Source: Patiriisocius marinistellae (lineage in GTDB: Bacteria; Bacteroidota; Bacteroidia; Flavobacteriales; Flavobacteriaceae). Taken from it: a DNA stretch of 64,000 bases. A program made the position numbers and the translations under genes. A model generated the notes under the pieces. That model did not search any database and was not told the origin of the DNA. It was given only the letters and a program-made list of their open reading frames with translations. Positions 3,781-61,753 of the stretch are shown piece after piece; positions within the stretch are counted from its first letter, which is position 1, and every line of letters begins with the position of its first letter. Where the stretch lies: the NCBI RefSeq assembly GCF_009014635.1, contig NZ_BKCF01000001.1, forward strand, positions 1,364,001-1,428,000. The letters run 5' to 3'.

Positions 3781-4180
3781 TTATTTATTATATTATAAAT
3801 GCATGATAAAATTCACAAAGCAGGAAAAAGACTACGTTGATTGTCTGATAAATTCTGCATTGTAACGAACGCGTAAGGACTTTGAAATTTTAACGTTTCT
3901 TTAACATATTTGAGATATAGGAAGAATTTGTTTAGTTACCGATAAATATTAATTCTTAGCCGATTTTACCAAACACCATTAACACGTGTTTTCCTACAAA
4001 TACTTTAAATGATTGATTACTACGTACATCCACGTATATATTAAGTCAAATTAATTTTAATCTTTGGATTGCGAAATTAAATATGAATACATGTTAATTT
4101 AAGCACTCTCTCCTCGCCCAAATTTTGATTAACATATTAATCGTGTTTCATTTAATTAATAACTAAAAATCTATCTAATT
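3781..4180. other. Curli upstream regulatory region
   Basis: A 400-bp stretch without a gene. It holds the palindrome AACACGTGTT (3981-3990), the TACGTAC element (4021-4039) and a probable -7 box TAATCTTTG (4058-4066), giving a leader of roughly 110 bases before the first curlin gene. I see no further gene or RNA structure. Confidence 0.6.
4021..4066 (+). promoter_or_regulatory. TACGTAC operator and promoter of the curli locus
   Basis: TACGTACATCCACGTATAT (4021-4039) is a near-palindrome of two TACGTA-like halves. It differs at only two positions from the element on the minus strand upstream of the giant gene that starts at 61588. The -7 box TAATCTTTG ends at 4066, 45 bases after the first base of the element, the same spacing as at that giant gene. 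This looks like the site of a shared LuxR/NarL-type regulator; the regulator is not identified. Confidence 0.6.
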
Positions 4181-5083
4181 ATGAAGAAAGTAATTTTAAC
4201 AGGAATGTTTTCATTTTTAACTTTAATGGGGTTTTCACAGAATATTAGTGATTTGCTTCAATCAGGTACAAATAATGCTGATATTAATCAGACTTCAACA
4301 GGGGTATTTTATAACGCTAGTGATGTTGATCAAAATGGAGCAAGCAATGATGCTCAAATAACTCAAGTGGGTAATAATGAGTCGGTTTTAACTCAGACAG
4401 GAACTTTAAATATGGCTACAGTGAACCAAGTTGGCGGTAATGGAAATCCTGGTTTTAATCAAAACCGTCAAGACTCTTCCATAGATCAAGATGGTACAAA
4501 TAATCAAGCTTTTGTTTCACAAGTTTCTGGTGTAGGAAATAATTTTGCAAGTGGTAACTCTTCAGTATTAACTCAAAACAATACAGCTTCTTCAAATGGA
4601 GTGGGAAATTTCGCTACAATAACACAAACAAAGAGAAATCAAACTTCAACTGCAACACAAACCAACGGTAATAACTATTTAAGTGTTACTCAAGAAAGAG
4701 ATTTAAGTAATGTATCTATAAGTAATCAAACGTCATCTGAGCTTTCCTCTGGTTCTTTAGCTGGAGGTTATTTAAATAGGTCTACTGTTATGCAAAGATT
4801 TCGTAGAAACTTTTCAGATGTAGCTCAAAATGGTGATAATAATGACTCTTCTGTAAATCAAAGTTCAACTTTAAATAGTACTCCTATGACTAATGAGGCT
4901 TATATAGTCCAAGATGGAGATCTTGGTACTAGTGTTTTAGTTCAAAATAACCTTAATAATTCATTAAGAGGAGATAATACTGCTACAGTTATGCAAACGA
5001 ATATGGTAAATGGTTTAGGTAATATGAATACTGCAACTCAATTAGGTGCAAATACCGCAACTGTAACACAAACAAATAATTAA
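4181..5083 (+). CDS. Curlin-repeat amyloid protein 1 (CsgA-like)
   Basis: A secreted curli subunit of 300 residues. A signal peptide ends at GFSQ (about residue 20). The rest is a run of about 19 curlin-type repeats with the pattern N-x-A-x-(I/V)-x-Q-x-G-x-x-N, for example NNADINQTS, SNDAQITQVGNN and MATVNQVGGN. Gln and Asn are spaced as in amyloid beta-strand-loop-strand units. There are many more repeats than the five of E. coli CsgA. It ends in ANTATVTQTNN, an ending shared by the other two curlins. It is the first gene of the locus, 43 bp ahead of the second curlin. Which of the three paralogues is the main fibre subunit cannot be told. Confidence 0.88.
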   Translation: MKKVILTGMFSFLTLMGFSQNISDLLQSGTNNADINQTSTGVFYNASDVDQNGASNDAQITQVGNNESVLTQTGTLNMATVNQVGGNGNPGFNQNRQDSSIDQDGTNNQAFVSQVSGVGNNFASGNSSVLTQNNTASSNGVGNFATITQTKRNQTSTATQTNGNNYLSVTQERDLSNVSISNQTSSELSSGSLAGGYLNRSTVMQRFRRNFSDVAQNGDNNDSSVNQSSTLNSTPMTNEAYIVQDGDLGTSVLVQNNLNNSLRGDNTATVMQTNMVNGLGNMNTATQLGANTATVTQTNN

Positions 5084-5126
5084 ATAATAATTATCAACTA
5101 AATATTAATAACTAAATTTTACAATT

Positions 5127-6029
5127 ATGAAAAAAGTAATTTTAGGCGCTGCAGCGCTAATGATTGGTACAATGTCTTATGCTCAAAATGTGAATGAACT
5201 AGATCAAATGGGTTCTAACAACGCTGATATTGTACAAGTTTCAACAGGCACATTTTACAATAATAGTGATGTTGATCAAGATGGATCTGGAAACGATGCT
5301 CAGGTAAATCAAGAAGGTAACAACGATTCTACGGTTGATCAAACCGGAACTGGTAACATGGCCGATATTAATCAAATAGGGGGTAACCAGCCTACATTTT
5401 ATGTTGATGTAAATACCTCAACAGCTATTCAAAATGGATCTGGAAATGTTATTGATGTAGATCAAGCTAACCTAGGAGGCGGAAATCCTGCAAGTGGAAA
5501 CATTTCTGAAATAGATCAAAATAATGTAGCTTCGGGTGGAGATGGTAACTATGCGAGAGTATTGCAAGGACCTTTTCACAATGGGTCTTATGTTACTCAA
5601 GTGAATGATGATAACTCGGTTAATGTAGATCAATTCGGAGGTAGAAACACTAGTAATACAAATCAAACTTCTGACGGTGTTCTTAGCTCTGTAGGCGCTG
5701 GCTTCGAGCAAGAGTCTACTGTAGTGCAAAGAGGTAATTATAACCTTTCTACTGTAAATCAGGATGGTAGTAATAACCAGTCTTCTGTAGATCAACAAAC
5801 TTCAGCAGGTTTTCCAATTACTCTTGGAGAAAGCAACGTAGCAACGATAGATCAAGATGGATATAACAACATGTCGACCACTACACAAAGTGATTCTATG
5901 TTAGGAAATGATGGTAACAATTTAATTACTGTAACTCAAGAGAATTTATCAACTGCTTTCTTGGGTAATATTTCAACAGAAAATCAAATGGGAGGAAATA
6001 CAGCTACTGTAACACAAACTAATAACTAA
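5127..6029 (+). CDS. Curlin-repeat amyloid protein 2 (CsgA-like)
   Basis: 300 residues, the same length as the preceding paralogue and clearly related over the first 80 residues (STGxFYNxSDVDQ and NDAQ). A signal peptide ends near MSYAQ. Curlin repeats fill the rest, such as NNADIVQVS, GNDAQVNQEGNN and NLSTVNQDGSNN, richer in Asp and VDQ/IDQ cores than protein 1. The ending GGNTATVTQTNN is shared. It follows protein 1 by 43 bp with no terminator between them and is closed by a perfect 11-bp hairpin terminator, so genes 1 and 2 form a transcription unit. It should be exported through CsgG and added to curli fibres. Confidence 0.88.
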   Translation: MKKVILGAAALMIGTMSYAQNVNELDQMGSNNADIVQVSTGTFYNNSDVDQDGSGNDAQVNQEGNNDSTVDQTGTGNMADINQIGGNQPTFYVDVNTSTAIQNGSGNVIDVDQANLGGGNPASGNISEIDQNNVASGGDGNYARVLQGPFHNGSYVTQVNDDNSVNVDQFGGRNTSNTNQTSDGVLSSVGAGFEQESTVVQRGNYNLSTVNQDGSNNQSSVDQQTSAGFPITLGESNVATIDQDGYNNMSTTTQSDSMLGNDGNNLITVTQENLSTAFLGNISTENQMGGNTATVTQTNN

Positions 6030-6044
6030 TTAGGATAATTGAAT

Positions 6045-6075
6045 GTAAGGATGTAAATAATACATCCTTACTTTT
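6045..6075 (+). terminator. Intrinsic terminator after the second curlin gene
   Basis: Perfect 11-bp stem GTAAGGATGTA / TACATCCTTAC with a 5-base loop and TTTT. It separates the first two curlin genes from the third. Confidence 0.9.
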
Positions 6076-6167
6076 CATAAATTAAATTAATATAAAACCC
6101 CAAGTTAACTTATATTCAGTGTAGTTATTGAAATAAGTTATTAATAAGGAAATTTCTCAATCCTAAT

Positions 6168-6191
6168 ATTTCATTAAAAAATGAAATTTTT
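6168..6191 (+). promoter_or_regulatory. Terminator-like hairpin in the leader of the third curlin gene
   Basis: ATTTCATT (6168-6175) pairs with AATGAAAT (6180-6187) and is followed by a short T-run, about 50 bases before the ATG at 6243. The stem is weak and AT-only apart from one G:C pair. It could be an attenuator, a second terminator, or chance in AT-rich DNA. Confidence 0.25.
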
Positions 6192-6242
6192 GTTTTGAGT
6201 CAGCAACTAAAATAATTCAATTAATAATTTAAATTTAACAAA

Positions 6243-7142
6243 ATGAAAAAAGTAATTTTAAGTGCATTAGCATTAACATTCACAGCAGTTGGTATTAGTC
6301 AAAATGTATCAGAACTAGATCAAATAGCTGGTAACACAGCTACTGTTACACAAACAAGTATAGGGTCTTTTTATAATTTTAGTGATGTAGATCAAGTAGG
6401 AACAAATCTTGCTACAGTTACTCAAACAGGAGATAACTCTTCTATAGTAGATCAAACAGGTGCAAGTACAGCAGTTGTTACACAAAGTGGTGGTCAAGGT
6501 TTAGCTGGTACAGCAGCAACTAACTCTTCTGATGTTCTTCAGAGTGGTGGTAACACTGCGTTAGTAGATCAAACAGGAGATGGTCATAGTTCAGATGTTG
6601 ATCAATTTACAGCGGCAGGTTCAGTTGCTGTAGCTAACTTAGCAGATATTGATCAAACTGGAGACTCTCAAGAATCTAAGGTTGATCAAATGGAAGAAGG
6701 TAACTTTGCTAGTCACAATCAACAAGGAGATAACAACTATGCGGAGACAGATCAAGACAGAAATATGTCTATCGCTCCATTAGCAGGTAATCCAGCAGGT
6801 TACACACAAGGGAGTACAATAAATCAAAATGGTTCTTACAACTATGCATTAGCTACACAAAATGGTGCTAATCAAAGATCTATTATTGTTCAAAATGGTG
6901 GTGCAAATGCGTTAGCAAATTATTCTAATGAGGCTACGGTAACTCAAACTGGTTCACTTGCTTACTCTACGGTAAACCAAGGTGATTTAGTTGCAGGAGA
7001 TGCTAATAACACTGCTACTGTAATGCAAACTAATAGTTTAGCTTCGCCAACAATGGGGCCTGGTTCTTTTGGAGAAGTTAACAATAGTGCTATAAACCAA
7101 AGTGGTGCAAATACTGCAACGGTTACTCAAATTAGCAATTAA
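6243..7142 (+). CDS. Curlin-repeat amyloid protein 3 (CsgA-like)
   Basis: 299 residues with a signal peptide ending near GISQ and curlin repeats throughout (NTATVTQTS, LATVTQTGDNS, ESKVDQMEEGN, YALATQNGANQ). Its repeats carry more TQTG/DQTG units than those of the two upstream paralogues. It ends with GANTATVTQISN, so the C-terminal repeat is the best conserved part of all three proteins. It has its own intergenic region in front and its own strong terminator behind, so its level can be set apart from the other two. Probably a further fibre subunit; a specialised role is possible but unproven. Confidence 0.87.
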   Translation: MKKVILSALALTFTAVGISQNVSELDQIAGNTATVTQTSIGSFYNFSDVDQVGTNLATVTQTGDNSSIVDQTGASTAVVTQSGGQGLAGTAATNSSDVLQSGGNTALVDQTGDGHSSDVDQFTAAGSVAVANLADIDQTGDSQESKVDQMEEGNFASHNQQGDNNYAETDQDRNMSIAPLAGNPAGYTQGSTINQNGSYNYALATQNGANQRSIIVQNGGANALANYSNEATVTQTGSLAYSTVNQGDLVAGDANNTATVMQTNSLASPTMGPGSFGEVNNSAINQSGANTATVTQISN

Positions 7143-7777: not shown

Positions 7778-8521
7778 ATGAAATCTTTTCTTTACATTAT
7801 TTTTATTATTAGTATTGTTGCTAAGGGACAATATAATACAATTGTAAAAGCAGATTTGCTTGTTGAAGAAAATACTGAATTTACAGAAATTAAAGCCAGA
7901 GCAAATAATTTAGTTGAAGTAAACCAAGATTTACGTTTTGTTTTTTCAATAATTAAAACGATTTCAGAGGATGAGAAATTAAATAAAACTGATGAAGAAG
8001 GAGGCTTTTTTTTAAAGCCATTTGAGAAAAAATTTTTAGGAGAGATTACAATTCCAAAAACTGATAAGACAAAGATTATTATTCTTTTATTAGTTTATGA
8101 CGCCAGAGAAAAATTAATTGGTAAAGCTAGATGGTCACAGTTTGATGAAGAGAGTAGTGAAAAGGTACCTATTGTGCTTTCGAAAGAAGAGATAAGAGCT
8201 AGTGCTTATAATGATGCTTTAATTAGTGGCATTGTTACACAAGATACTCGAACAAAATTTGGGAATGATTTTTATAAAATATTTTATGCACAATATTTTT
8301 TGAGTGAGATTAATGCAGAAGAGATAATTGATGTTAAAGAGGTACTTGCTTTAGGAAGAAATACAAAAATAGAAGTGAGAATTGATGGAGTTTTGTTGAG
8401 CGAGTTTTTTTTAAGACCTAAAGAACAATATTTGAAATATATGTCTCAATTCACTATAGATAATATTGTAAAATATTTGCAGAATAAAAAAAACATGAAC
8501 AATCAAATTGAACGTTATTAA
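7778..8521 (+). CDS. csgE: Curli assembly factor CsgE (N-terminally extended)
   Basis: CsgE is the periplasmic adaptor that caps CsgG and brings curlin subunits to the pore. The CsgE part lies at about residues 143-237 of 247, marked by SGIVTQDTRTKFGNDFYKIF, corresponding to the GLxxxxTxTxxGxDFYxxF region of the family, and a later IEVRIDG segment. A signal peptide ends near AKGQ. The N-terminal ~120 residues form an extra beta-rich domain that E. coli CsgE (about 130 residues in all) does not have. It sits 12 bp before csgF. Assignment of the C-terminal half is firm; the role of the N-terminal half is unknown. Confidence 0.85.
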   Translation: MKSFLYIIFIISIVAKGQYNTIVKADLLVEENTEFTEIKARANNLVEVNQDLRFVFSIIKTISEDEKLNKTDEEGGFFLKPFEKKFLGEITIPKTDKTKIIILLLVYDAREKLIGKARWSQFDEESSEKVPIVLSKEEIRASAYNDALISGIVTQDTRTKFGNDFYKIFYAQYFLSEINAEEIIDVKEVLALGRNTKIEVRIDGVLLSEFFLRPKEQYLKYMSQFTIDNIVKYLQNKKNMNNQIERY

Positions 8522-8533
8522 AATTTTTAGTTA

Positions 8534-8938
8534 ATGAAAAAAATTATAATATTTATAATATTCATAATATTTCCTTTTTTTGGTTTTGCACAACAATTGG
8601 TTTATAAAGCAGTGAATCCAGCATTTGGTGGAGATACATTTAATTATCAATGGCTATTAAGCTCTGCAAACGCACAAAATAGTTTTACCGATCCCAATAC
8701 CCAACAAAATGAGGAAACGAGTGAATTAAGTCAATTTGCGGATAATTTGAATAGACAGCTGTTAAGCCAGATATCTCGTGAAGTGTTTAATAATCAATTT
8801 GATTCAGATACATTACAGCCAGGTACATTTACTTTCGGGAGTTTAGAAGTTGAAATAGCAGAAGGTATTACTGGTCTTATTATTAATATTCTTGACACTA
8901 ATAATGGTGAACAGACTCAAATTATTGTTCCTAATTAG
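8534..8938 (+). CDS. csgF: Curli assembly factor CsgF
   Basis: 134 residues, the normal size. A signal peptide ends at FGFAQ. It is followed by the family hallmark of a short beta segment and YKAVNPAFGGDTFNYQWLL with SANAQNSF, matching the FRNPNFGGNPxNGxxLLxxAxAQN block by which CsgF enters the CsgG channel. CsgF couples secretion to nucleation at the cell surface. The stop codon is one base from the CsgG start, so the two are probably translationally coupled. Confidence 0.92.
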   Translation: MKKIIIFIIFIIFPFFGFAQQLVYKAVNPAFGGDTFNYQWLLSSANAQNSFTDPNTQQNEETSELSQFADNLNRQLLSQISREVFNNQFDSDTLQPGTFTFGSLEVEIAEGITGLIINILDTNNGEQTQIIVPN

Positions 8939-8939
8939 C

Positions 8940-10316
8940 ATGATTTATTTTCAAAAAGTTTTAGTGTTTTTTATAACATTATTTTTTGTGAGTTGTGGCT
9001 CTTATTTTAATCAACCTACAAAATTTCAAGATGCCCGTATAGGAGAAACAACAAAAAATACAGAATCAATAAGATCGTTGCCAACACCAGAAAAAAAGGT
9101 TGTCATTGGTGTTTATAACTTTAAAGATCAAACAGGTCAATATAAACAAACTCAAGCGGGTAGTAATTTTAGTACAGCAGTAACTCAAGGAGCTACTACT
9201 GTTTTAATTAAGGCTTTAGAGGACTCAAAGTGGTTTAGACCTATAGAAAGAGAAAATTTAAGTAATTTATTACAAGAAAGAAAAATTATTGAGGCTACTA
9301 GAAATGATTATGCCTCAGACAAAACACAAGTCCAAAGATTATCTCCACTCTTGTTTGCAGGTGTAATCCTAGAAGGAGGTATAATATCTTACGATTCGAA
9401 TATTTTAACTGGCGGAGCTGGAGCCCGCTATTTTGGGATTGGAGGTTCTACCCAATATCGTCAAGATAGAATTACTATTTATTTAAGAGCAGTGGCTACA
9501 TCAACTGGCGAAGTAGTGAAAACAGTTTATGTTTCAAAAACAATTTTATCTCAAGGAGTTGATGCTGGACTATTTAGATATGTTAATTTTCAACGGTTGT
9601 TAGAAGTTGAGACGGGTTATACAAAAAATGAACCGGCAGAACTTGCTGTTAAGGAAGCCATTGAAAAAGCAGTCGAAAGTTTAGTTTATGAGGGTATAAT
9701 TGATGGTTTATGGGTAGCAGAAGGGGGAGAAGAAAAAAGAGAAGAAATTAAAACAGAATATCTAAAAAATAAAGAAGAGGAAGAGGCAATCGGGCTTTAT
9801 AATAGAAAATTTTATGAAAATGATAGAAAGCACAGCATTCATGCAGCTATAGGAGCTGCTCTTATTGATGGAGATCTAGCAACTCATGATCCAGATTTTG
9901 CTGTAGAACTTGGATATAAATACGATTTAACAAATTCGTTCCGTGTTAATGCTGCTGCGGGATTATTTAAACTGTATTCTTCACCTGAAATAAACTACTG
10001 GTTTATGGATTTTGATTTAAATTTTGAATATAGAATTTTAAGTAATGATAAATTTTCTCCATATATATATGGAGGTCCTGGACTTTTATTATTTGTAGAT
10101 GATGAGCCATTTAAATTTCTTCAAAAAGGAGATTCATTTGGAAAAATTCAATATGGAATTGGTCTTGAATACCATAGCTCTGATGCATTTAGCTTCTTTT
10201 TGAAGGGAGATTATAACTACTCTTTTTCAGATAAAATTGACAATGTTATAAATGGTTCAAAAGATGATCATTATTACAATGTTCACTTTGGTGTTAACTA
10301 CAACTTAGGATTTTAA
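8940..10316 (+). CDS. csgG: Curli secretion channel CsgG with C-terminal beta-barrel-like domain
   Basis: The outer-membrane secretion pore for curlins. I start it at the ATG at 8940, one base after the csgF stop, because this gives a clean lipoprotein signal (FFVSC, lipid on Cys at about residue 19); an in-frame upstream start at 8892 would lie inside csgF. The CsgG domain covers about residues 35-275 (KVVIGVYNFKDQTGQYK, STAVTQGATTVLIKALEDS, WFRPIEREN, LFAGVILEGGIISYDSN, GAGARYFGIGG). From about residue 297 to the end at 458 there is an added domain of alternating amphipathic strands (FAVELGYKYDL, FSPYIYGGPGLLLF, IQYGIGLEYHS) ending in YNVHFGVNYNLGF, like a small outer-membrane barrel. E. 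coli CsgG lacks it. Confidence 0.9.
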   Translation: MIYFQKVLVFFITLFFVSCGSYFNQPTKFQDARIGETTKNTESIRSLPTPEKKVVIGVYNFKDQTGQYKQTQAGSNFSTAVTQGATTVLIKALEDSKWFRPIERENLSNLLQERKIIEATRNDYASDKTQVQRLSPLLFAGVILEGGIISYDSNILTGGAGARYFGIGGSTQYRQDRITIYLRAVATSTGEVVKTVYVSKTILSQGVDAGLFRYVNFQRLLEVETGYTKNEPAELAVKEAIEKAVESLVYEGIIDGLWVAEGGEEKREEIKTEYLKNKEEEEAIGLYNRKFYENDRKHSIHAAIGAALIDGDLATHDPDFAVELGYKYDLTNSFRVNAAAGLFKLYSSPEINYWFMDFDLNFEYRILSNDKFSPYIYGGPGLLLFVDDEPFKFLQKGDSFGKIQYGIGLEYHSSDAFSFFLKGDYNYSFSDKIDNVINGSKDDHYYNVHFGVNYNLGF

Positions 10317-43999: not shown

Positions 44000-46900
44000 T
44001 TATTCTATTAATAGCTGTTTTGTGATTTGACCCTGTTCACTTTCAATTATAACAAGATAGTTTGCACTCTGCAATAAGGAAACATCTATTTTTTTATTAA
44101 CTCCCATCATTATTAAATCTTCGTTTTGTACTAGTTTACCGTTGAGGTTATAGATTGAAAGAGATGTCAATGCAGCATTTTGTGGATTACTTAGTATTAT
44201 ATAATTTGTTGCTGGATTAGGATAGAGTGTAATTGTTGCTAATGAGATTTGAGAGGTGTTATTACCTAAGGTATCATCTACAGTTAATACGAAAGTACAT
44301 TCACCTTCAAAGCCATTATTGTCTTGAGCAGATAGCGTGATAATATGTGTGCCTTGTTCAAGTAATGTTCCAGGATTAGGATCTTGATCTGTTACTGTAA
44401 CTGGATCTGTACAATTATCAATTGCCATAGCCTCTCCTGTAGCAAAGTAATCTGGTAGTACATACGGGCCTGTTGAGATAACTGTTTGGTCTGCTGGGCA
44501 TAAAACTTCTGGAGCTAATCCATCAATTACGTTAACAAAAGCTACACAGCTATCAGTGTCTCCATTACCATTTGTAATTGTTAAGGTTACCATAACGGGT
44601 GTTCCTATATCGCTACAATCAAAAGTGTTAATGTCTATACTTAATCCATTTGAACATCCAGCTCCACTAGAACCACCGTCTAGTGCTTGAGGTAATAAAG
44701 TAGCAGTACCGTTTTGCATTAGTGGGATGGTAACATTTTGACAAACTGCAATAGGAGTTGCGTTAAGTTCATTTACGGTTACAACAGCAGTACATGTTGC
44801 TTCATTACCATATAAATCAATAACGGTTAGTATTACATTATTAGCTCCTACATCGCTGCAGTCAAAAGATGTGATATCAATTGCTGTAAATTCTATTCCG
44901 CAGGCATCTGAGCTTCCTCCATCAACATCAGCAGCAGTAATAGTAGCTGTTCCATTAGCATCAAGCATCACCGTAATATCTTGGCAAACTGCTGTAGGTG
45001 CAGTCGTGTCTTCAATGGTTACCACAGCAGTACAAGAGCTCTCATTTCCGAAGGTATCAGTCACTGTCAATATTACATCATTTTCACCTATGTTAGTACA
45101 ATCAAAAGTATCGTTATCTATCATTATTGTTGCAATGCTACAATTATCACTACTGCCAGCATCAACATCTGAAGGAATAATTGTTACAAAACCGCTAGCA
45201 TCAAGTGAAACCGTGATGTTCTGGCAAAGTGCAATTGGGTTTTCGGTTTCTTCTACCGTAACGACAGCAATACATGATTGAGTATTTCCATTAATGTCTG
45301 TTACGGTGAGGGTAACATTATTAGCACCAATGTTTGAACAGTCAAAAGTATCAATATCAATACTCGTAGCACTTATGCCACAAGCATCTGAACTACCGCC
45401 ATCAATAGCTGCGGGTGTTATTGAAATAGTTCCAGTAGCGTCTAGCTGTACAGTAATGTTTTGACAAAGAACCTGTGGTGCTATTGTGTCTTCTACTGTG
45501 ACGGTAGCTGTACAACTATTTGTATTTCCTTGGTCATCTGTAACTGTTAAAATAACATCATTAGGTCCTATGTTTGAACAATCAAATGTGTCTATGTCAA
45601 TTGATAAAGGGGTTGTAGCGATACATGTTAAAACACTACCACCATCAATATCTGATGGGATAATTGTCACCATTCCTGTAGTATCTAATTGTACGGTAAT
45701 ATTTTGGCAGATAGCTGTTGGAATGTTATTATTTTCAACAGTAACAATAGCTGTACATTGACTAGAATTTCCGAAGATATCTGTAACCGTTAACGTCACA
45801 TTATTAGTGCCAATGTTTGAGCAATCAAAAGTATTAATATCGATTGAAATTGTGTCAACTCCACAATTATCTGTACTCCCGTTATTAACATCTGCAGCTA
45901 CAATGTTTGCTATTCCCATGGTGTCAAGTTGTACAGTAATGTCTTGACAAATAGCAGTAGGGGGAAGGGTGTCTTCTACTGTGACAATGGAGACACAAGA
46001 ACTATTGTTTCCATTATTATCTGAAACGAAAAGTGTAACATTATTAGTACCTATGTTTGAACAATCAAAAGTGGTAATATCAATAGCTAAGTTGTTTATT
46101 CCGCAGGCATCTGTACTTCCTCCATCAATTTCTGCTGGTGTAATAACAGCCATTCCTAAGGCGTCTAATTGTATTGTAATATTTTGACAAATGGCTTGTG
46201 GCGCAATTATATCTTCTACCGTTACCATGGCTGTACAAGAACTTGTATTTCCAGCATTATCTGTCACAGTTAACACAACAGGATTGATACCTATATTACT
46301 GCAATCAAAAGTGTCAATGTCCACTGTAAGCGAAACCGTACTACAACTATCACTGCTACCATCATCAATGTCACTAGGAGATAATGTAGCTGTGCCTAAT
46401 GCATCAAGCAAGATGGTAAAATCTTGACAAATAGCAATTGGATTTGTATTGTCTTCAAGAATCACCTCAAAAGTACAACTTGTTGTATTCTGAGAATCTG
46501 AAGCCTCCATTGTTACAATTGTTGTTCCTACATTAACAATAGTTCCAGCTAGAGGGGTTTGTACAATGGTAGGTGTGCTACAAGCATCGTTTGCAGTGAC
46601 TAATGAGGTATAATCTGGCAATATAAATTGACAATCTGAATTTACAGTTACAATTTGTGTTGGAGGACACATTATTGTTGGAGGTGTATTGTCTATTATT
46701 GTAACGGTAAAATCACAACTAGTTTCATTCAAGCCATCAAATGCGGTAAAAGTTACAATAAGATTTCCCGGAGTTACTATTGTGCCAACAGGTGGGTCTT
46801 GAGTAACAGAAACTATAGAACAATTATCACTAGCGGTAACTAGGCTTAAATAATCTGGGACAATAAAGTCACACGTGTTAGGATCTCCAAATGCAGTGAT

Positions 46901-49900
46901 GTTATCTGGACAGGTTACAACAGGAGGTGTGTTATCTTTTACGTTTAAGTTAAAACTACAAGTATCTGTATTAGTTCCGTCAGATACAATTAACGTTATT
47001 GTTGTATCTCCTAACCCAACGAGTGTCCCGGGTAACGGATTTTGTTCTACGGAAATTACTGTGCAATTATCCATAGCTAATGCAAGGGAAGTGTAGTCTG
47101 GTACGGAAAACATGCAATCAACATCAACACTTTCAAACTGGTCAATTGGGCAACTAATTGTTGGCGGAATATTATCATTTACAATGACATCAAACATGCA
47201 TTCTACAAAATCCTGTCCGTCATCTGCCGAAATTGTTATGGTATTTGCTCCAGTTGAAACAATTGTTCCAGCAACTGGATTTTGAGTGACTGTCACTGGG
47301 CCACAGTTTTCAATTGTCATAATAATACTTGTGTAATCTGGAATTATAAACTCACAATTAATGTCTGCAGAAACGGTTTCGTTCATTGGACATTCAATTA
47401 CTAACGGAGTATCATCTATTACGTTTAGATTAAAGCTACAACTCTCGGTGTTTGTTCCATCTGAAACTGATATTTCTACAATTGTATTCCCGATATTTAC
47501 GAGTGTTCCAGCGGTAGGTGTTTGTGTAACGGTTGTAATTCCGCAGTCATCAGAGAAAACTGCTAGTGCAGTGTAATCTGGTACTTCAAATTGGCAATCT
47601 GCATTTGCGCTTTCGGTTTGGTTGTCTGGGCACGTTATTTCTGGCGGTGTTCCGTCAATAACTGTAATGTTGAAGTTGCAATCTGTGGTATTTGTACCAT
47701 CAAAAGTAGTTAATGTTATTTGTGTTACTCCTGCTATTACAGCTGTTCCCGGCACTGGACTTTGAGTTATTGAAACTATTGTACAGTTGTCTGTTGCTGT
47801 TGCTAATGTGGTGTAATCTTCGATTGTAAAAGTACAGGTGGCGTCAACATTTTCTGTGATATCTGCCGGGCATGAGATTTCTGGTGGCGTATTATCAATA
47901 ACGGTAATATCAAACGTGCATGTGTTTGAGTTTGTGCCATCGTTTGCAAATAGTGTTATTGTTGTTGTTCCTGTCAATATTGTTGTTCCAGCAACGGGAT
48001 TTTGTGTGATGGTTACGTTTCCGCAGTTATCGCTCGTTATTGCTAATGTTGTGTAATCTTCAAGTATAAATCCACAATTGATATCTGCCGAAACTGTCTG
48101 GTTTAATGGGCAGCCGATGATTGGCGGAGTATCATCTATTACGTTTAGATTAAAGCTACAACTCTCGGTGTTTGTTCCATCTGAAACTGATATTTCTACA
48201 ATTGTATTCCCGATATTTACGAGTGTTCCAGCGGTAGGTGTTTGTGTAACGGTTGAAATTCCGCAGTCATCAGAGAAAACTGCTAGTGCAGTGTAATCTG
48301 GTACTTCAAATTGACAATCTGCATTTGCGCTTTCGGTTTGGTTGTCTGGGCACGTTATTTCTGGCGGTGTTCCGTCAATAACTGTAATGTTGAAGTTGCA
48401 ATCTGTGGTATTTGTACCATCAAAAGCAGTTAATGTTATTTGTGTTACTCCTGCCATTACAGCTGTTCCCGGCACTGGACTTTGAGTTATTGAAACTATT
48501 GTACAGTTGTCTGTTGCTGTTGCTAATGTGGTGTAATTTCCGAGTGTAAAAGTACAGCTGGCGTCAACATTTTCTGTGATATCTGCCGGGCATGAGATTT
48601 CTGGTGGCGTATCATCAATAACAGTAATATCAAACGTGCATGTGTTTGAGTTTGTGCCATCGTTTGCAAATAGTGTTATTGTTGTTGTTCCTGTCAATAT
48701 TGTTGTTCCAGCAACGGGATTTTGTGTGATGGTTACGTTTCCGCAGTTATCGCTCGTTGTTGCTAATGTTGTGTAATCTTCAAGTATAAATCCACAATTG
48801 ATATCTGCCGAAACTGTCTGGTTTAATGGGCAGCCGATGATTGGCGGAGTGTTGTCTAATACCGTTAGTGTAAAATTACAAATACTACTATTGTTAGAAG
48901 TATCAGTTACTACTAAATCAATCAACGTATCTCCTATGCCAATAAATGTTCCAGCAGCTGGAGTTTGTACTATAGATGCTATACCACATCTATCTTCTAT
49001 AGATGCAAGAAGACTGTAATCTGGCACTTCAAATTGGCAGTTGGTGTCTGCGTTTTCGGTTTGTGCTGAAGGGCAAATTAAAAGAGGATCCTCGTTATCA
49101 ATTACTGTAAGATCAAACATACAGTTTTCGGTATTTGTTCCGTCAGTTGCTTCTAGGGTTATTTGTACTGTTCCGGGACCTACTATAGTGCCTATAGGAG
49201 GGGTTTGACTTATAATTATTGAATTACAATTGTCAGAAAATGTTGCTATAAAACGATAGTCTTGTATTACGTATTCGCAATTAATATTTACAATTCTGGT
49301 TTGGTCTGATGGGCAATTAATAACTGGAGGGGTATCGTCGACTATGGTTACATTAAATATACAATCTATAGCGTTTGTTCCATCTGTTGCTTCCAGTGTT
49401 ATTTGTGTAACTCCTAATCCTATGGCTGTTCCAGGAGCTGGGTTTTGTGTGATTGAAATTGATGCTGCACAATTATCTGTCACAGTAGCAAGTGCTCTGT
49501 AATCATCAAGAGTGAACATACAATTAATATCTGCGCTTTCAGTGATGTCTTCAGGGCATGTTATTATTGGAGGCATAGTGTCTTCAATGGTAATAGTCGC
49601 ATTACAAATGTCACTATTACCTGCTGCATCTGTAGCGGTTAATTGTACCATGTTTGCCCCTACATTATTACAGTCAAAGGTGTCATTGTCTAAAGTTAAT
49701 GTAAAACTACCGCTGTCATCACTTGTTCCTCCGTCAATGCTTGATGGTAAAATTGTAACATTCCCTGTAGCATCTAATTGTACGGTTATATCTTGACAAA
49801 TGGCAATAGGGTCTACTTCGTCAACAAAGCCAACGATAAAACGAAAATCAAAAGTAGGATCATGATAATTAGGGAATTCGCCTGGCTGTAATTCTAATAT

Positions 49901-50329
49901 ACTCCCATTAGGATAAGCGTTACCAAAGGATGCTTGCCAAGAAATAGGAAGAGTTTGCCCTGATATAATATAGGTGTAAACACCTCCATTTATCACTGCG
50001 GGATTAGAAGGGAACGGTATTAAAAATTCTGTGGTTCCGTTATTTATAGTAAAGGGTTGTGTTGCAAGTGGTGTAGTTGCATCTGTACCTTCAAAAATTG
50101 TCATTAATAATGTAGCGCTTGCTTGTCCATTTGTATAAACGGTTAATGACTCTATACTACCGTTACAAAATGTTGTAAAACTCTGCCCATATGCATCACC
50201 TGGTTGCGAGGGTAAACTAACTTGTTCAATATTTTGAGAAATATTTTGACCAGGTCCACATTGTGTAAACCCACTATAGCTAAAGAGAAAAAAGGCAATT
50301 GTAATAAATAGCAGGGTATTTTTTTTCAT
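44000..50329 (-). CDS. Giant T9SS surface protein with HYR and ICQ repeats (giant 1)
   Basis: About 2109 residues from the ATG at 50329; an ATG 12 bases upstream is in frame, but the start at 50329 gives a leader like that of giant 2. Signal peptide ending SGFTQ; a lone beta-rich domain (about 25-180, SFTTFCNGSIESLTVY, WQASFGNAYPNGS); one ICQ-type repeat (xICQDITVQLDA); 13 HYR-type repeats of about 80 residues (PPxIxCP, xxC.F.xPDY, DNC, VTQxPxxGT, G....IT....DGxN...C.F); eight more ICQ-type repeats; one HYR; and a type A T9SS sorting tail (about the last 80 residues, LYPNPATNYIILS, LSIYNLNGKLV, YLVIIES). Probable surface adhesin, SprB-like in plan but not a recognised SprB. Confidence 0.88.
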   Translation of the reverse strand: MKKNTLLFITIAFFLFSYSGFTQCGPGQNISQNIEQVSLPSQPGDAYGQSFTTFCNGSIESLTVYTNGQASATLLMTIFEGTDATTPLATQPFTINNGTTEFLIPFPSNPAVINGGVYTYIISGQTLPISWQASFGNAYPNGSILELQPGEFPNYHDPTFDFRFIVGFVDEVDPIAICQDITVQLDATGNVTILPSSIDGGTSDDSGSFTLTLDNDTFDCNNVGANMVQLTATDAAGNSDICNATITIEDTMPPIITCPEDITESADINCMFTLDDYRALATVTDNCAASISITQNPAPGTAIGLGVTQITLEATDGTNAIDCIFNVTIVDDTPPVINCPSDQTRIVNINCEYVIQDYRFIATFSDNCNSIIISQTPPIGTIVGPGTVQITLEATDGTNTENCMFDLTVIDNEDPLLICPSAQTENADTNCQFEVPDYSLLASIEDRCGIASIVQTPAAGTFIGIGDTLIDLVVTDTSNNSSICNFTLTVLDNTPPIIGCPLNQTVSADINCGFILEDYTTLATTSDNCGNVTITQNPVAGTTILTGTTTITLFANDGTNSNTCTFDITVIDDTPPEISCPADITENVDASCTFTLGNYTTLATATDNCTIVSITQSPVPGTAVMAGVTQITLTAFDGTNTTDCNFNITVIDGTPPEITCPDNQTESANADCQFEVPDYTALAVFSDDCGISTVTQTPTAGTLVNIGNTIVEISVSDGTNTESCSFNLNVIDDTPPIIGCPLNQTVSADINCGFILEDYTTLAITSDNCGNVTITQNPVAGTTILTGTTTITLFANDGTNSNTCTFDITVIDNTPPEISCPADITENVDATCTFTIEDYTTLATATDNCTIVSITQSPVPGTAVIAGVTQITLTTFDGTNTTDCNFNITVIDGTPPEITCPDNQTESANADCQFEVPDYTALAVFSDDCGITTVTQTPTAGTLVNIGNTIVEISVSDGTNTESCSFNLNVIDDTPLVIECPMNETVSADINCEFIIPDYTSIIMTIENCGPVTVTQNPVAGTIVSTGANTITISADDGQDFVECMFDVIVNDNIPPTISCPIDQFESVDVDCMFSVPDYTSLALAMDNCTVISVEQNPLPGTLVGLGDTTITLIVSDGTNTDTCSFNLNVKDNTPPVVTCPDNITAFGDPNTCDFIVPDYLSLVTASDNCSIVSVTQDPPVGTIVTPGNLIVTFTAFDGLNETSCDFTVTIIDNTPPTIMCPPTQIVTVNSDCQFILPDYTSLVTANDACSTPTIVQTPLAGTIVNVGTTIVTMEASDSQNTTSCTFEVILEDNTNPIAICQDFTILLDALGTATLSPSDIDDGSSDSCSTVSLTVDIDTFDCSNIGINPVVLTVTDNAGNTSSCTAMVTVEDIIAPQAICQNITIQLDALGMAVITPAEIDGGSTDACGINNLAIDITTFDCSNIGTNNVTLFVSDNNGNNSSCVSIVTVEDTLPPTAICQDITVQLDTMGIANIVAADVNNGSTDNCGVDTISIDINTFDCSNIGTNNVTLTVTDIFGNSSQCTAIVTVENNNIPTAICQNITVQLDTTGMVTIIPSDIDGGSVLTCIATTPLSIDIDTFDCSNIGPNDVILTVTDDQGNTNSCTATVTVEDTIAPQVLCQNITVQLDATGTISITPAAIDGGSSDACGISATSIDIDTFDCSNIGANNVTLTVTDINGNTQSCIAVVTVEETENPIALCQNITVSLDASGFVTIIPSDVDAGSSDNCSIATIMIDNDTFDCTNIGENDVILTVTDTFGNESSCTAVVTIEDTTAPTAVCQDITVMLDANGTATITAADVDGGSSDACGIEFTAIDITSFDCSDVGANNVILTVIDLYGNEATCTAVVTVNELNATPIAVCQNVTIPLMQNGTATLLPQALDGGSSGAGCSNGLSIDINTFDCSDIGTPVMVTLTITNGNGDTDSCVAFVNVIDGLAPEVLCPADQTVISTGPYVLPDYFATGEAMAIDNCTDPVTVTDQDPNPGTLLEQGTHIITLSAQDNNGFEGECTFVLTVDDTLGNNTSQISLATITLYPNPATNYIILSNPQNAALTSLSIYNLNGKLVQNEDLIMMGVNKKIDVSLLQSANYLVIIESEQGQITKQLLIE
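47406..48850 (-). repeat. 720-bp tandem duplication inside giant 1
   Basis: The segment beginning at 47406 is repeated starting at 48126 with an offset of exactly 720 bp (240 residues, three HYR modules). I see only scattered single-base differences, mostly near identical over whole lines. Beyond both edges similarity falls to that of ordinary modules. The two copies cover about residues 494-734 and 734-975. Confidence 0.93.
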
Positions 50330-50355
50330 TATAAGTCGCAAGTATTATTTAAAGG

Positions 50356-50402
50356 GGCAATATACTAATTAACAAAAAATTAGCATCAAGTAAAATCACG
50401 TA
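50356..50402 (-). promoter_or_regulatory. Promoter and TACGT element of giant 1
   Basis: On the minus strand TACGTGATTTTACTTGATG (50384-50402) is a degenerate form of the TACGTAC element. The block TGTTAATTAGTATATTGCC (50356-50374) follows and includes a -7-like TATATTG. The same block, with one mismatch, precedes giant 2. From the first base of the element to the end of the -7 is 44 bases (45 at giant 2 and curli). Confidence 0.55.
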
Positions 50403-50625: not shown

Positions 50626-51078
50626 ATGAGTGAATCAAAAAATAATGCAGCATTACCAACAAATGGTGTGAAAATTGGTGATGCTGAAGCTTGGACTCAA
50701 GCGTGGCAAGAACACTGCAAAGATCAAGCAAAAGCATTTCTTATACCAATGGTAGATTTGTTAGAATTACTTACCGAGCTTAAAGTATTAAAACCAGATG
50801 GTAATGGAAATTTAATTACAGATGGAACTTCTTACCCAATTGATGGTATTCGTGCGTATAATGGTTTGATTATGGATTCATCAAACCCTAAAAGTGTAGC
50901 AAAAGCTGAAAAGAAAATAGTGTTAGTAGGTACAGTTGAGGTTAATGGTGAAGCACAAGATCAAGTTGAAAATAGCCTAGATAAACCACAAGTAAAATTA
51001 GCTGGAAGTGGTGCTTTTGATTTTGGGAAACCGTGTCCTGTATATTGTAATAAAAATAGTTCTTTGTATCATAGTTAA
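50626..51078 (+). CDS. Unknown protein, first gene of the two-component operon
   Basis: 150 residues, no signal peptide or membrane helix. Features: AEAWTQAWQEHCKDQAKAFLIP, DLLELLTELKVLKPDGNGNL, IDGIRAYNGLIMDSSN, KIVLVGTVEVNGEAQD, and a Cys-bearing end (GKPCPVYCNKNSSLYHS). I do not recognise the family. The neighbour starts 4 bp after its stop. It probably acts with the membrane protein and the kinase. The two cysteines near the C-terminus could bind metal. Confidence 0.7.
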   Translation: MSESKNNAALPTNGVKIGDAEAWTQAWQEHCKDQAKAFLIPMVDLLELLTELKVLKPDGNGNLITDGTSYPIDGIRAYNGLIMDSSNPKSVAKAEKKIVLVGTVEVNGEAQDQVENSLDKPQVKLAGSGAFDFGKPCPVYCNKNSSLYHS

Positions 51079-51081
51079 TTT

Positions 51082-51747
51082 ATGCAAGTACTATTACAGT
51101 TAATTGGTAAATTATGGTTTATTCTAATTGGTTTTAATTCAGTTCTATACCTGTATAGTGCTTTTAAAATTAAAAAAAATAGGTCGCTTAATTTATTAGC
51201 ATTATACCTAGTCTTAATATTTTTAAATCAATTAGTTGCTGATTATGTGGCAGATTTGACTGGTAATAATTTATTTTTATTTCATGTCTATTTAATTATT
51301 CAATTTCTTTGTTTGTCATTTTTTTATAAATCGTTATTCAATAAAAAACAAAAAAAAGTTGTTAACCTTTTACTCGTTATTGTTTTAATAGCATTAATAG
51401 TTTATTATATAGTTTGGCCAGATGATTTTGTATATTTTAATTTACCAGAAATTTTGATAGCGACCATTCCAGTCTTGGGTTATATCATGGTCCATTTGTA
51501 CAATTCATTAACAGAAAAGGGAGACTATTTATTGGTAAGTGGGGGGTTATTAGTATACTTATCTATTAGTTCATTAATCTTTTTATTATATGCTTTATTT
51601 ACAAACAATATTGATAAAAATATTTTAAGTGATGAAACAGCATTTAATATTTCAGAAATAAATAGAATCTCATATTTATTGTTACATGTAGTAATATTTC
51701 TTGAATGGAAATTTAATATTTCAAAATGGAGACGCAAGACAGTTTAA
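51082..51747 (+). CDS. Polytopic membrane protein of the two-component operon
   Basis: 221 residues with six or seven membrane helices (for example FILIGFNSVLYLYSAF, LLALYLVLIFLNQLVADYVA, LLVIVLIALIVYYIVW, LLVYLSISSLIFLLYALF). The C-terminus is charged (EWKFNISKWRRKTV) and overlaps the kinase start by 22 bp. No known family recognised. The short histidine kinase next door has only one helix, so this protein may provide the sensing part. Confidence 0.75.
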   Translation: MQVLLQLIGKLWFILIGFNSVLYLYSAFKIKKNRSLNLLALYLVLIFLNQLVADYVADLTGNNLFLFHVYLIIQFLCLSFFYKSLFNKKQKKVVNLLLVIVLIALIVYYIVWPDDFVYFNLPEILIATIPVLGYIMVHLYNSLTEKGDYLLVSGGLLVYLSISSLIFLLYALFTNNIDKNILSDETAFNISEINRISYLLLHVVIFLEWKFNISKWRRKTV

Positions 51748-52529
51748 TAGCATTTCTCGTTTACGGTATAATTTTTACCGTGTTTCTAACAACAGGGTTA
51801 ATGTTGTTCTTTTTCTATTCTCGTAAACGAATCGTTCAAAAAGAATTAGAAAAAATAGGATTACAAGTAAAATATAAAGACCAATTATTACAAACCACAA
51901 TAGCAACACAGGAAGAGGAACGTCAACGTATTGCACAAGATTTACACGATGATATTAGTGCAAAATTGAATGTAGTGAGTTTGACTACCCACACCTTACT
52001 AGATAATCCAGAATTATCTAAAGAAGATAGAATGTCACTAGAACATGTACTTAATGTAGTCACAAACACATTAGAAAGTTCAAGACGGATTGCCCATGAT
52101 TTACTGCCACCTGTACTGGATAAATTTGGTCTGCAAGTTGCACTAGAAGAACTTTTTGAGGATTTTAAAAGAACAAATGCACTGCAAATGTTGTATGAAA
52201 TTAAAATCCAAGAACTGCAATTAAATTGTACCCAAGAACTTCATATTTTTAGAATAGTACAAGAGCTAATCAATAATGCCACACGCCACGGAAAAGCTAC
52301 CCAAATCAAGTTTAAATTGCTACAAGCCTCTAATGGATTTTCTTTAACCTTTGAGGATAACGGTTCAGGTTTTTCAATAAAAGGTCTAGAAGAACGAACA
52401 GGTCTTGGGTTACAAAATATTAAAAGTAGAGCAGCAATACTTAACTGCCAGATACACATAAATAGTATTGTTGGAAAAGGGAGCACATTTATAATTACTT
52501 CTGAAATTCCCGAGACTCAAACAATCTAA
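51726..52529 (+). CDS. Sensor histidine kinase (HisKA_3, one membrane helix)
   Basis: 267 residues: one N-terminal membrane helix (FLVYGIIFTVFLTTGLMLFFF), a short coiled coil, HisKA_3 with phospho-His74 in RIAQDLHDDISAKLN, and HATPase_c (LINNATRHGKATQIKF, EDNGSGF, GLGLQNIKSRAAIL). No extracellular sensor domain of its own, which fits use of the preceding membrane protein as sensor. It starts inside the end of that gene. Confidence 0.92.
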   Translation: METQDSLIAFLVYGIIFTVFLTTGLMLFFFYSRKRIVQKELEKIGLQVKYKDQLLQTTIATQEEERQRIAQDLHDDISAKLNVVSLTTHTLLDNPELSKEDRMSLEHVLNVVTNTLESSRRIAHDLLPPVLDKFGLQVALEELFEDFKRTNALQMLYEIKIQELQLNCTQELHIFRIVQELINNATRHGKATQIKFKLLQASNGFSLTFEDNGSGFSIKGLEERTGLGLQNIKSRAAILNCQIHINSIVGKGSTFIITSEIPETQTI

Positions 52530-52535
52530 AAACAT

Positions 52536-52559
52536 AAAATTTCCAACTTCGGAAATTTT
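52536..52559 (+). repeat. Hairpin AAAATTTCC / GGAAATTTT between kinase and response regulator genes
   Basis: Nine-base arms around a 6-base loop that contains AACTTC; the right arm includes the recurring word CTTCGGAAA (52547-52555). It begins 7 bases after the kinase stop and ends 15 bases before the response-regulator ATG. May affect translation or be another copy of the TTTCCGAAG element. Confidence 0.4.
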
Positions 52560-52573
52560 AAACAACCAAAACA

Positions 52574-53248
52574 ATGAGTACAAAAATAACAATGGTCCTT
52601 GCCGATGATGAGCAGCTCTTTAGACAAGGAATGCGAGCTATACTAAATAGAGTTGAAGAATTTGAGATATTATTTGACGCAGCTGATGGCAAAGACTTAG
52701 TTGATCAACTTAGAGTAGCAGAAACACTACCCGATATCATAATAACCGATTTGAAAATGCCAGAACTTAATGGGGTAGAGGCAACAAAGCTAATCCAAAA
52801 AGAATTTCCAAATTGTAAAGTAATTGCTTTAACTAGTTACTTTAGTAAACCATTTGTGGTAAATATGATATCAATAGGTGCCGTAGCTTATTTAGCAAAA
52901 AATAGCTCACCCACACTTATGGTAAAAACCATAAAGGAGGTAGCAGAAAAAGGATTTTTTTATGATGAAAAAGTACTTCAGTTTATCAAAGATGGTTTGT
53001 TTAATAAAGGGAAAGCAACAAAATCTAGATTTGATAAAAACCATTTGTCAACAAGAGAAAGTGAAGTTCTACAACTTATCTGTCAACAATTAACCACAAA
53101 CGAAATAGCAGAAAAACTATTTATAAGCCCACGCACCGTAGAAGGACACCGTAACAATCTACTCCTAAAAACCGAAGCAAAAAACAGTGCAGGTCTTGTA
53201 GTTTATGCAATTGAAAACGGTATCGTAAACTTAGATCCAAAATATTAA
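52574..53248 (+). CDS. LuxR/NarL-type response regulator
   Basis: 224 residues. Receiver with DDEQ acidic pocket, Asp59 in IIITDLKMPE, Lys in YLAKNSS. LuxR helix-turn-helix at the C-terminus (LSTRESEVLQLICQQLTTNEIAEKLFISPRTVEGHRNNLLLKT). Partner of the kinase 45 bp upstream. Its gene lies between giants 1 and 2, so it is the nearest candidate to bind the TACGTAC element found ahead of the giants and curli; this is inference. Confidence 0.93.
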   Translation: MSTKITMVLADDEQLFRQGMRAILNRVEEFEILFDAADGKDLVDQLRVAETLPDIIITDLKMPELNGVEATKLIQKEFPNCKVIALTSYFSKPFVVNMISIGAVAYLAKNSSPTLMVKTIKEVAEKGFFYDEKVLQFIKDGLFNKGKATKSRFDKNHLSTRESEVLQLICQQLTTNEIAEKLFISPRTVEGHRNNLLLKTEAKNSAGLVVYAIENGIVNLDPKY

Positions 53249-61611: not shown

Positions 61612-61659
61612 GGCAATATACTGATTAACAAAATTTTATGATATACGTAGAAGTACGTA
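61612..61659 (-). promoter_or_regulatory. Promoter and TACGTAC element of giant 2
   Basis: Minus strand TACGTACTTCTACGTATAT (61641-61659) matches the curli element at 17 of 19 positions. TGTTAATCAGTATATTGCC (61612-61630) follows, with the -7-like TATATTG ending 45 bases from the element start and 26 bases before the ATG. Confidence 0.6.
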
Positions 61660-61753
61660 ATCTTACATAATCGTTCAAGTTAAAAAATTTACGATAAAAT
61701 GTAGTTTTTAGTGTTTTTGAACTATTTTTTATAAGAATATCTTGATTTTAAAT

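Follow-up and report, generated by a model that had tools for sequence, protein, structure and literature searches.

The promoters of the curli operon and of giant T9SS-exported proteins in Patiriisocius marinistellae share a 16-bp palindrome, TACGTA-N4-TACGTA, that sits 22–23 bp ahead of a −7 box of flavobacterial type. We interpret this palindrome as an operator bound by one clade of NarL/FixJ-type response regulators, represented by RR11 and RR12, which would act as activators and jointly switch curli and T9SS adhesins; we put the probability of this reading at roughly 0.77. The analysis began from a window of 64,000 nucleotides (contig NZ_BKCF01000001.1, positions 1,364,001 to 1,428,000) and was extended to the whole genome and to related genomes.

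A shared operator in the window

The curli operon of the window is preceded by the 19-bp element TACGTACATCCACGTATAT (4021–4039, forward strand) and the gene for giant 2 by the similar element TACGTACTTCTACGTATAT (61641–61659, reverse strand). A preliminary description of this DNA had proposed that these two loci share an element and that a degenerate copy precedes giant 1; both copies lie where it had placed them, and the degenerate copy is present at 50387–50402 (reverse strand) with 3 mismatches. The element had been written as TACGTAC-N4-ACGTA, and while the element itself stands, its core is better defined as TACGTA-N4-TACGTA, a 6-4-6 arrangement. By this definition the curli operator is TACGTA-CATC-CACGTA (4021–4036, forward strand), one mismatch from the palindrome, giant 2 has the perfect TACGTA-CTTC-TACGTA (61644–61659, reverse strand) with an additional half-site-like TATGTA 10 bp upstream (61664–61669), and giant 1 has the degenerate TACGTG-ATTT-TACTTG. 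The −7 boxes follow at nearly constant distance, with AATCTTTG (4059–4066, forward strand) 22 bp 3′ of the curli operator and TATATTGC, a box of the TAnnTTGY type, 23 bp 3′ of the operator at giant 2 (61613–61620, reverse strand) and 22 bp 3′ at giant 1 (50357–50364, reverse strand). Counted inclusively from the start of the element to the last base of the −7 box, the distances are 46 (curli), 46 (giant 2) and 45 bases (giant 1), in agreement with the fixed spacing proposed earlier. When the leaders were dinucleotide-shuffled and either box type was accepted, an equally good operator with a box at 22–23 bp arose in 0 of 1,000 shuffles for curli, 0 of 1,000 for giant 2 and 3 of 1,000 for giant 1.

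The genes behind these promoters belong to two export routes. Three curlin-repeat genes (4181–5083, 5127–6029 and 6243–7142, together 4181–7142, forward strand; PF07012 in each) are followed by csgE, csgF and csgG (7778–10316, forward strand; PF10627, PF10614 and PF03783), and the presence of curlin repeats together with all three csg genes identifies a curli (T8SS) operon. Giant 2 (2752 aa, 53330–61588) and giant 1 (2113 aa, 44000–50341), both on the reverse strand, combine HYR repeats with the T9SS C-terminal sorting domain PF18962. A NarL/FixJ response regulator is encoded between the two giants (52574–53248, forward strand).

Operator copies across the genome

A whole-genome scan allowing up to 1 mismatch to TACGTAC-N4-ACGTA, which captures every perfect TACGTA-N4-TACGTA, returned 15 rows. 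Five of these are perfect palindromes, and in each case a box begins 23 bp further downstream. They precede giant 2 (box TATATTGC), a 79-aa protein consisting only of a GerE (LuxR-type helix-turn-helix) domain (box TACCTTTG), giant 3 (box TATCTTTA), a 38-aa predicted membrane ORF (box CACATTTG) and, on a different contig, a fourth curlin-type gene (box TATATTTA). Giant 3 (1968 aa) has FG-GAP repeats and a T9SS tail (PF18962), the same domain that marks giants 1 and 2 as T9SS cargo. The fourth curlin-type gene and giant 3 both lie outside the window and were discovered through the motif alone. A genome search with PF07012 matched only inside the curlin genes of the window, and the fourth gene became visible by hmmscan (PF07012, E = 5e-5); on the evidence of these searches there are two curlin loci in the genome, each with an operator. 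PF18962 has 79 matches in the genome, ten of which fall in open frames of at least 1500 aa, and among these ten a strong site precedes giants 2 and 3 and a weak one giant 1.

According to the preliminary description, its proposal would fail if the motif were equally common inside coding regions, which is not what we find. All five perfect palindromes are intergenic, the one before the 79-aa gene on the understanding that translation starts at ATG, as an upstream TTG start would place it within the ORF. Near-matches that are neither perfect nor the curli site (L003, L007, L008 and L009) seem to fall in coding sequence. The same check in relatives gave a similar result: 1 of 30 palindromes falls within an ORF that starts at ATG and spans 100 aa or more, compared with 490 of 600 random positions from the same loci. 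Searching the genome for the composite of operator and box gave 8 matches with up to 2 mismatches and 0 for the reversed control. Composite matches with exactly 3 mismatches were at control level (10 of 18 rows, against 11 control matches) and were set aside. One such weak site, upstream of the kinase gene that precedes RR11, was equalled in 1 of 1,000 shuffles.

Conservation in the family and promoter geometry

We scanned both strands of 79 genomes for the composite with up to 2 mismatches. In the 47 Flavobacteriaceae relatives the composite has 69 matches and its reversed pattern 22; in the 31 genomes from other families the numbers are 6 and 9. Across 249 family genomes, the own genome included, the exact palindrome occurs 409 times against 87 for the reversed pattern; it is found in 122 genomes against 70, and 59 genomes against 0 have three or more copies. 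G170, G235 and G240 hold 16–19 perfect palindromes each and perhaps have much larger regulons.

To measure spacing we used 30 palindrome loci picked regardless of any box and read in 60 orientations (28 rows displayed, each from another genome). At exactly 23 bp downstream, 13 of the 60 orientations match at least five of the six TAnnTTTG positions, against a background of 0.74 per offset (s.d. 0.88) at offsets 40–119; under 40, the next-highest counts are 5 (at 0 bp) and 4 (at 7 bp). The −7 box of Flavobacterium psychrophilum spans −12 to −5 (PMC9723704), so a 23-bp spacer puts the centre of the palindrome at −43.5. A constant distance from the box, seen here as the spike at 23 bp, together with a centre within −41 to −44 is class-II-type geometry. 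Many operators also run straight into a TTG near −33, as in TACGTATTG.

Candidate regulators

In a tree of 34 proteins the regulators encoded next to operators form one clade of 17 rows (support 84/96; the fork is drawn open at its bootstrap of 84). Of the genome's 14 GerE matches, three fall in this clade: RR11, RR12 and the 79-aa protein. RR11 (C1:271512–272138) and RR12 (C1:748298–748921) are NarL/FixJ-type response regulators outside the window, each preceded by a kinase with HisKA_3 and HATPase_c domains; the TPR-like N-terminal matches of these kinases score under the Pfam cut-off. Neither protein reaches the 250-bit NCBIfam cut-off of the CsgD equivalog (RR11, 37.5 bits; RR12, 51.7 bits), and no NCBIfam cut-off is reached among the matches listed for RR11 and RR12 (best 25 rows each) and for the 79-aa protein. 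The 79-aa GerE protein (L011:8334–8573) is encoded as a stand-alone domain and groups with RR11. Its ATG lies 4 bases after the box, so its mRNA is probably leaderless or nearly so.

We then approached the association from the protein side, searching a profile of 16 clade regulators in 30 genomes, 15 bearing the sRNA described below and 15 hand-picked for having no perfect palindrome. RR12-type regulators (class B, E below 1e-90; RR11-type regulators are class A) occur in 14 of the 15 sRNA-bearing genomes and in 2 of the 15 palindrome-free ones. In 15 of 16 class-B loci an operator with up to 2 mismatches starts 5–32 bases from the beginning of the regulator's stop codon; the remaining locus, L299, has none in the 250 bases beyond the stop codon. 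The reversed pattern is absent within 900 bases at all 15 class-B loci examined for it. The box at 12 of 15 class-B sites fits only four of the six TAnnTTTG positions. An inverted repeat of about 16 bp with a gene of the regulator family beside it, as at all class-B loci except L299, is what a NarL/FixJ operator would look like. Among the ten second-rank loci displayed (L304–L313), an operator-like site directly after the regulator is followed by a secreted protein in L304, L306, L310 and L311; the sites of L308 lead to no clear gene, four loci have no operator and one more gave no readable ORF. First-rank loci of four palindrome-free genomes (L300–L303) showed no operator or no readable ORF.

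In other genera (L089, L092 and L094), the palindrome precedes apparent nitrate/nitrite assimilation genes that have NarL-type regulators of their own, and the box spacing differs there. Its presence beside these other regulators indicates that the motif is not private to the RR11/RR12 clade.

A small membrane ORF and a predicted sRNA

The class-B operator is mostly followed by an ORF of 33–47 aa with one hydrophobic segment, exemplified in the own genome by the 38-aa predicted membrane ORF beside RR12 (L012:8095–8211, reverse strand). An asparagine is invariant in 27 of 27 aligned sequences of this family, drawn from operator-found and protein-found loci, some with trimmed starts. L289 has no such small ORF after its class-B operator. 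Several −7 boxes of the family read GAnnTTTA.

A further operator precedes a candidate sRNA of about 122 nt (C2:347179–347300, reverse strand; also L032:6180–6301) between dsbD and an esterase gene. In four genomes (G000, G007, G022 and G037), operator and box are followed by 122–133 nt with the near-identical stretches TTTTTTGTGGGGAT and TTTACTAAGTTAGGTTTGTTAA and with a terminator-like stem that has compensatory pairs. A covariance model finds it in 21 of 199 family genomes, and in 17 of these 21 an operator with up to 2 mismatches lies 42–47 nt upstream (3 of the 17 copies are in the model, 14 outside it). Three of the four matches without an operator (L281–L283) we judge false, as they have E values of at least 0.001 and lack the GTGGGGAT core; the fourth, L276, begins at a contig edge. 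Across relatives, L263–L280 included, the candidate is about 122–150 nt long. An Rfam search of L032, L076 and L088 returned two sub-threshold matches and none at the sRNA places.

The site at L021 had been considered as an esterase promoter, and the four aligned genomes favour the sRNA on the other strand. Pairing of the sRNA with curli or giant mRNAs was likewise rejected, as RNAduplex over 14 leaders did not single out the regulon members and gave the lowest value for glnA. In G006 and G005 a second candidate sRNA (L076:6413–6549 and L078:6150–6282, both reverse strand) follows a perfect operator and box; it runs divergently from a cassette that holds orthologues of the window's genes at 50626–53248.

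Curli and T9SS cargo links in relatives

Some relatives repeat the curli link or the link to T9SS giants. Among eight syntenic curli operons, in which glutamine synthetase III is followed by curlins, four have the operator at 22 bp (the own genome, G009, G022 and G007; 0 of 500 shuffles each) and four have none (G037, G006, G041 and G019). The best 80 of 573 curli loci hold 12 sites; the reversed pattern has none there, and the other strand has 1. Eleven of the 12 precede genes in curlin position, ten of which have curlin repeats; the eleventh is the 106-aa ORF of L165, in which the curlin repeat pattern was not found, and the twelfth site, in L196, precedes another gene. By locus, the operator lies before curlin-position genes in 8 of these best 80, and the other 72, some of which end before the promoter, show no site before curlin genes upstream of csgG. 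L165 and G009 are contigs of equal length (13839 bases) with the match in the same place, and the N-terminus of the first curlin is identical in L207 and G022 and again in L163 and L164; given these duplicates, there are fewer independent lineages than the counts suggest. The association of curli with the operator recurs but is patchy rather than general.

In Ulvibacter litoralis every one of the three curlin genes has a separate operator followed by a box at 23 bp. Their leaders (L161:4153–7140) have in common, within the 5′ untranslated region, the sequence CCGTCCCAGGTTC or its beginning, and the stretches compared end within or just after it; CCGTCCCAGGTTC is a possible leader element of these genes.

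The T9SS side of the link also extends beyond the own genome. Two class-A loci found through the operator lead into proteins with T9SS tails, of 1726 and 156 aa in L063 and of 1987 and 1285 aa in L071. At L304, L306 and L310 the proteins that follow measure 1354, at least 1327 and 1376 aa and have C-termini that look T9SS-tail-like by eye; two of them have HYR matches. At these three loci a further TACGTA half-site lies, by eye, about 23 bp before a box-like sequence.

Weighing the alternatives

The preliminary description had argued for one regulator common to all three window loci. A common operator with fixed geometry stands; that one regulator serves it is open to doubt, because the paralogues RR11 and RR12 are neighboured by sites that differ, for the most part, in their centres. 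Sites next to RR11-type genes mostly have GGTC- or GACC-like centres and those next to RR12-type genes ACGT, GTTC, GAAG or TTTC, a difference that argues for two regulators sharing one site type. The main rival to a single regulator takes this further and posits two regulons with look-alike sites and no joint switching, RR11 serving the T9SS giants and RR12 serving curli, the sRNA and the membrane ORF. The RR11-type loci L011, L063 and L071 do lead into giants and the RR12-type loci into the small membrane ORF, and a TACGTG half-site is common to the sRNA and membrane-ORF operators in many genomes. However, the centre CTTC occurs both at giant 2 and at the curli site of G022, and a Mesoflavibacter curli site has a GGTC centre, so centre and target class are not cleanly separated. 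We regard separate regulons as a serious contender that falls somewhat short of even odds. An assignment of curli, the sRNA and the membrane ORF to RR12 and of giant 3 to RR11 from the central N4 bases would be a guess.

The regulator at 52574–53248, which the preliminary description had put forward as the binder, has its position between two target genes in its favour, and in G005 and G006 an operator lies about 2.0–2.6 kb from its orthologue. The tree nevertheless places it outside the clade of operator-adjacent regulators, and the G005 and G006 operators, oriented by their boxes, face away from the orthologues, which makes it an improbable binder. A repressor site, or one that works with either sign, is also unlikely: a protein bound to sites that run into the TTG near −33 could occlude polymerase, but a palindrome ending near −36 at an exact 22–23 bp from the box is an activator arrangement, as for NarL at napF and yeaR (PMC4549865), and a repressor would presumably need no such fixed spacing. 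Mere likeness of AT-rich promoters could be argued from permissive searches of the window, since with up to 3 mismatches the 19-bp element has an expectation of 0.41 per window and 2 matches are reached in 5 of 100 shuffles, and the palindrome with up to 3 mismatches of 12 is not commoner in the window (21) than in shuffles (mean 25.4). Our conclusions on the operator are built on strict matches instead, and the strict counts across genome and family, with the spacing peak, contradict chance and leave it a negligible probability.

A model for joint control

In our preferred reading, a joint switch operated by the RR11/RR12 clade, the regulators are encoded beside histidine kinases with putative TPR-like N-termini. 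We infer from sequence that, on a presumed signal, a phosphorylated NarL/FixJ-type dimer would bind the 16-bp palindrome near −43 and activate RNA polymerase in class-II fashion at TAnnTTTG and TAnnTTGY boxes. Predicted targets in the own genome are the curli operon, the second curlin locus, giants 2 and 3 and, weakly, giant 1; further targets would be the stand-alone 79-aa helix-turn-helix protein, the 38-aa predicted membrane protein and the putatively transcribed sRNA of about 122 nt. Feedback could run through the small membrane ORF (on RR12) and the 79-aa protein. The output would be a joint switch with built-in feedback that governs amyloid fibres and T9SS adhesins. Curli and the giant surface proteins are likely to form a common attachment programme.

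On a broader scale, the balance tips slightly towards the view that the Flavobacteriaceae own a two-component switch for biofilm formation or attachment, in which a NarL-type regulator and its kinase would autoregulate a conserved membrane protein of under 50 aa and a structured, apparently undescribed sRNA, and which would have recruited curli and giant T9SS adhesins into one regulon lineage by lineage, as a counterpart of CsgD of independent origin. A defined operator of fixed geometry, a few candidate regulators and a regulon predicted to include an sRNA and a microprotein make the question directly testable, for example in Ulvibacter litoralis, a relative that can be cultured, and the operator offers a genome-readable marker of the switch across the family.

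Comparison with known systems

The openly licensed literature that we searched yielded no report of the operator, of a regulatory link between curli and T9SS cargo or of the sRNA, and on the regulation of flavobacterial curli or very large T9SS adhesins it yielded only the PorXY–SigP work and promoter mapping. Rfp18, an sRNA of F. psychrophilum, has predicted targets that include metalloproteases and an adhesin (PMC9723704). Our candidate resembles it as a conserved, structured flavobacterial sRNA, compared by description only, and is apparently undescribed unless it proves to be Rfp18 itself. The same source assigns TAnnTTGY to motif SM5, tied to gliding motility, with the remFG-sprCDBF operon of the sprB adhesin among its promoters; a word search of its main text did not find 'palindrom' (PMC9723704). 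The TATATTGC boxes of giants 1 and 2 belong to this TAnnTTGY type, as at the sprB operon, and not to TAnnTTTG.

PorXY–SigP is likewise a case of two-component control linked to T9SS. PorX reportedly has no motif for DNA binding and does not bind the promoters of T9SS genes, and SigP is an ECF-type regulator (PMC5005315). Here, in contrast, promoters of T9SS cargo bear a NarL-type operator. The 7-2-7 palindrome of NarL also measures 16 bp, and NarL sits at about −40/−49 and −38/−47 when activating napF and yeaR (PMC4549865). Both systems combine a 16-bp inverted repeat with TAC...GTA ends, a response regulator with GerE output and a centre near −43. They differ in the half-site, which is TACGTA here and TACCCCT-like for NarL, and the flavobacterial system has its own −7 boxes, other kinases and other targets.

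In enterobacteria, the LuxR/FixJ-family protein CsgD governs curli together with other matrix functions. LuxR/FixJ-family control of curli alongside other surface functions is the likeness to the system proposed here. Unlike CsgD, RR11 and RR12 have Response_reg receiver domains and score far under the CsgD equivalog cut-off, and the operator, the sRNA and the T9SS cargo set the flavobacterial system further apart.
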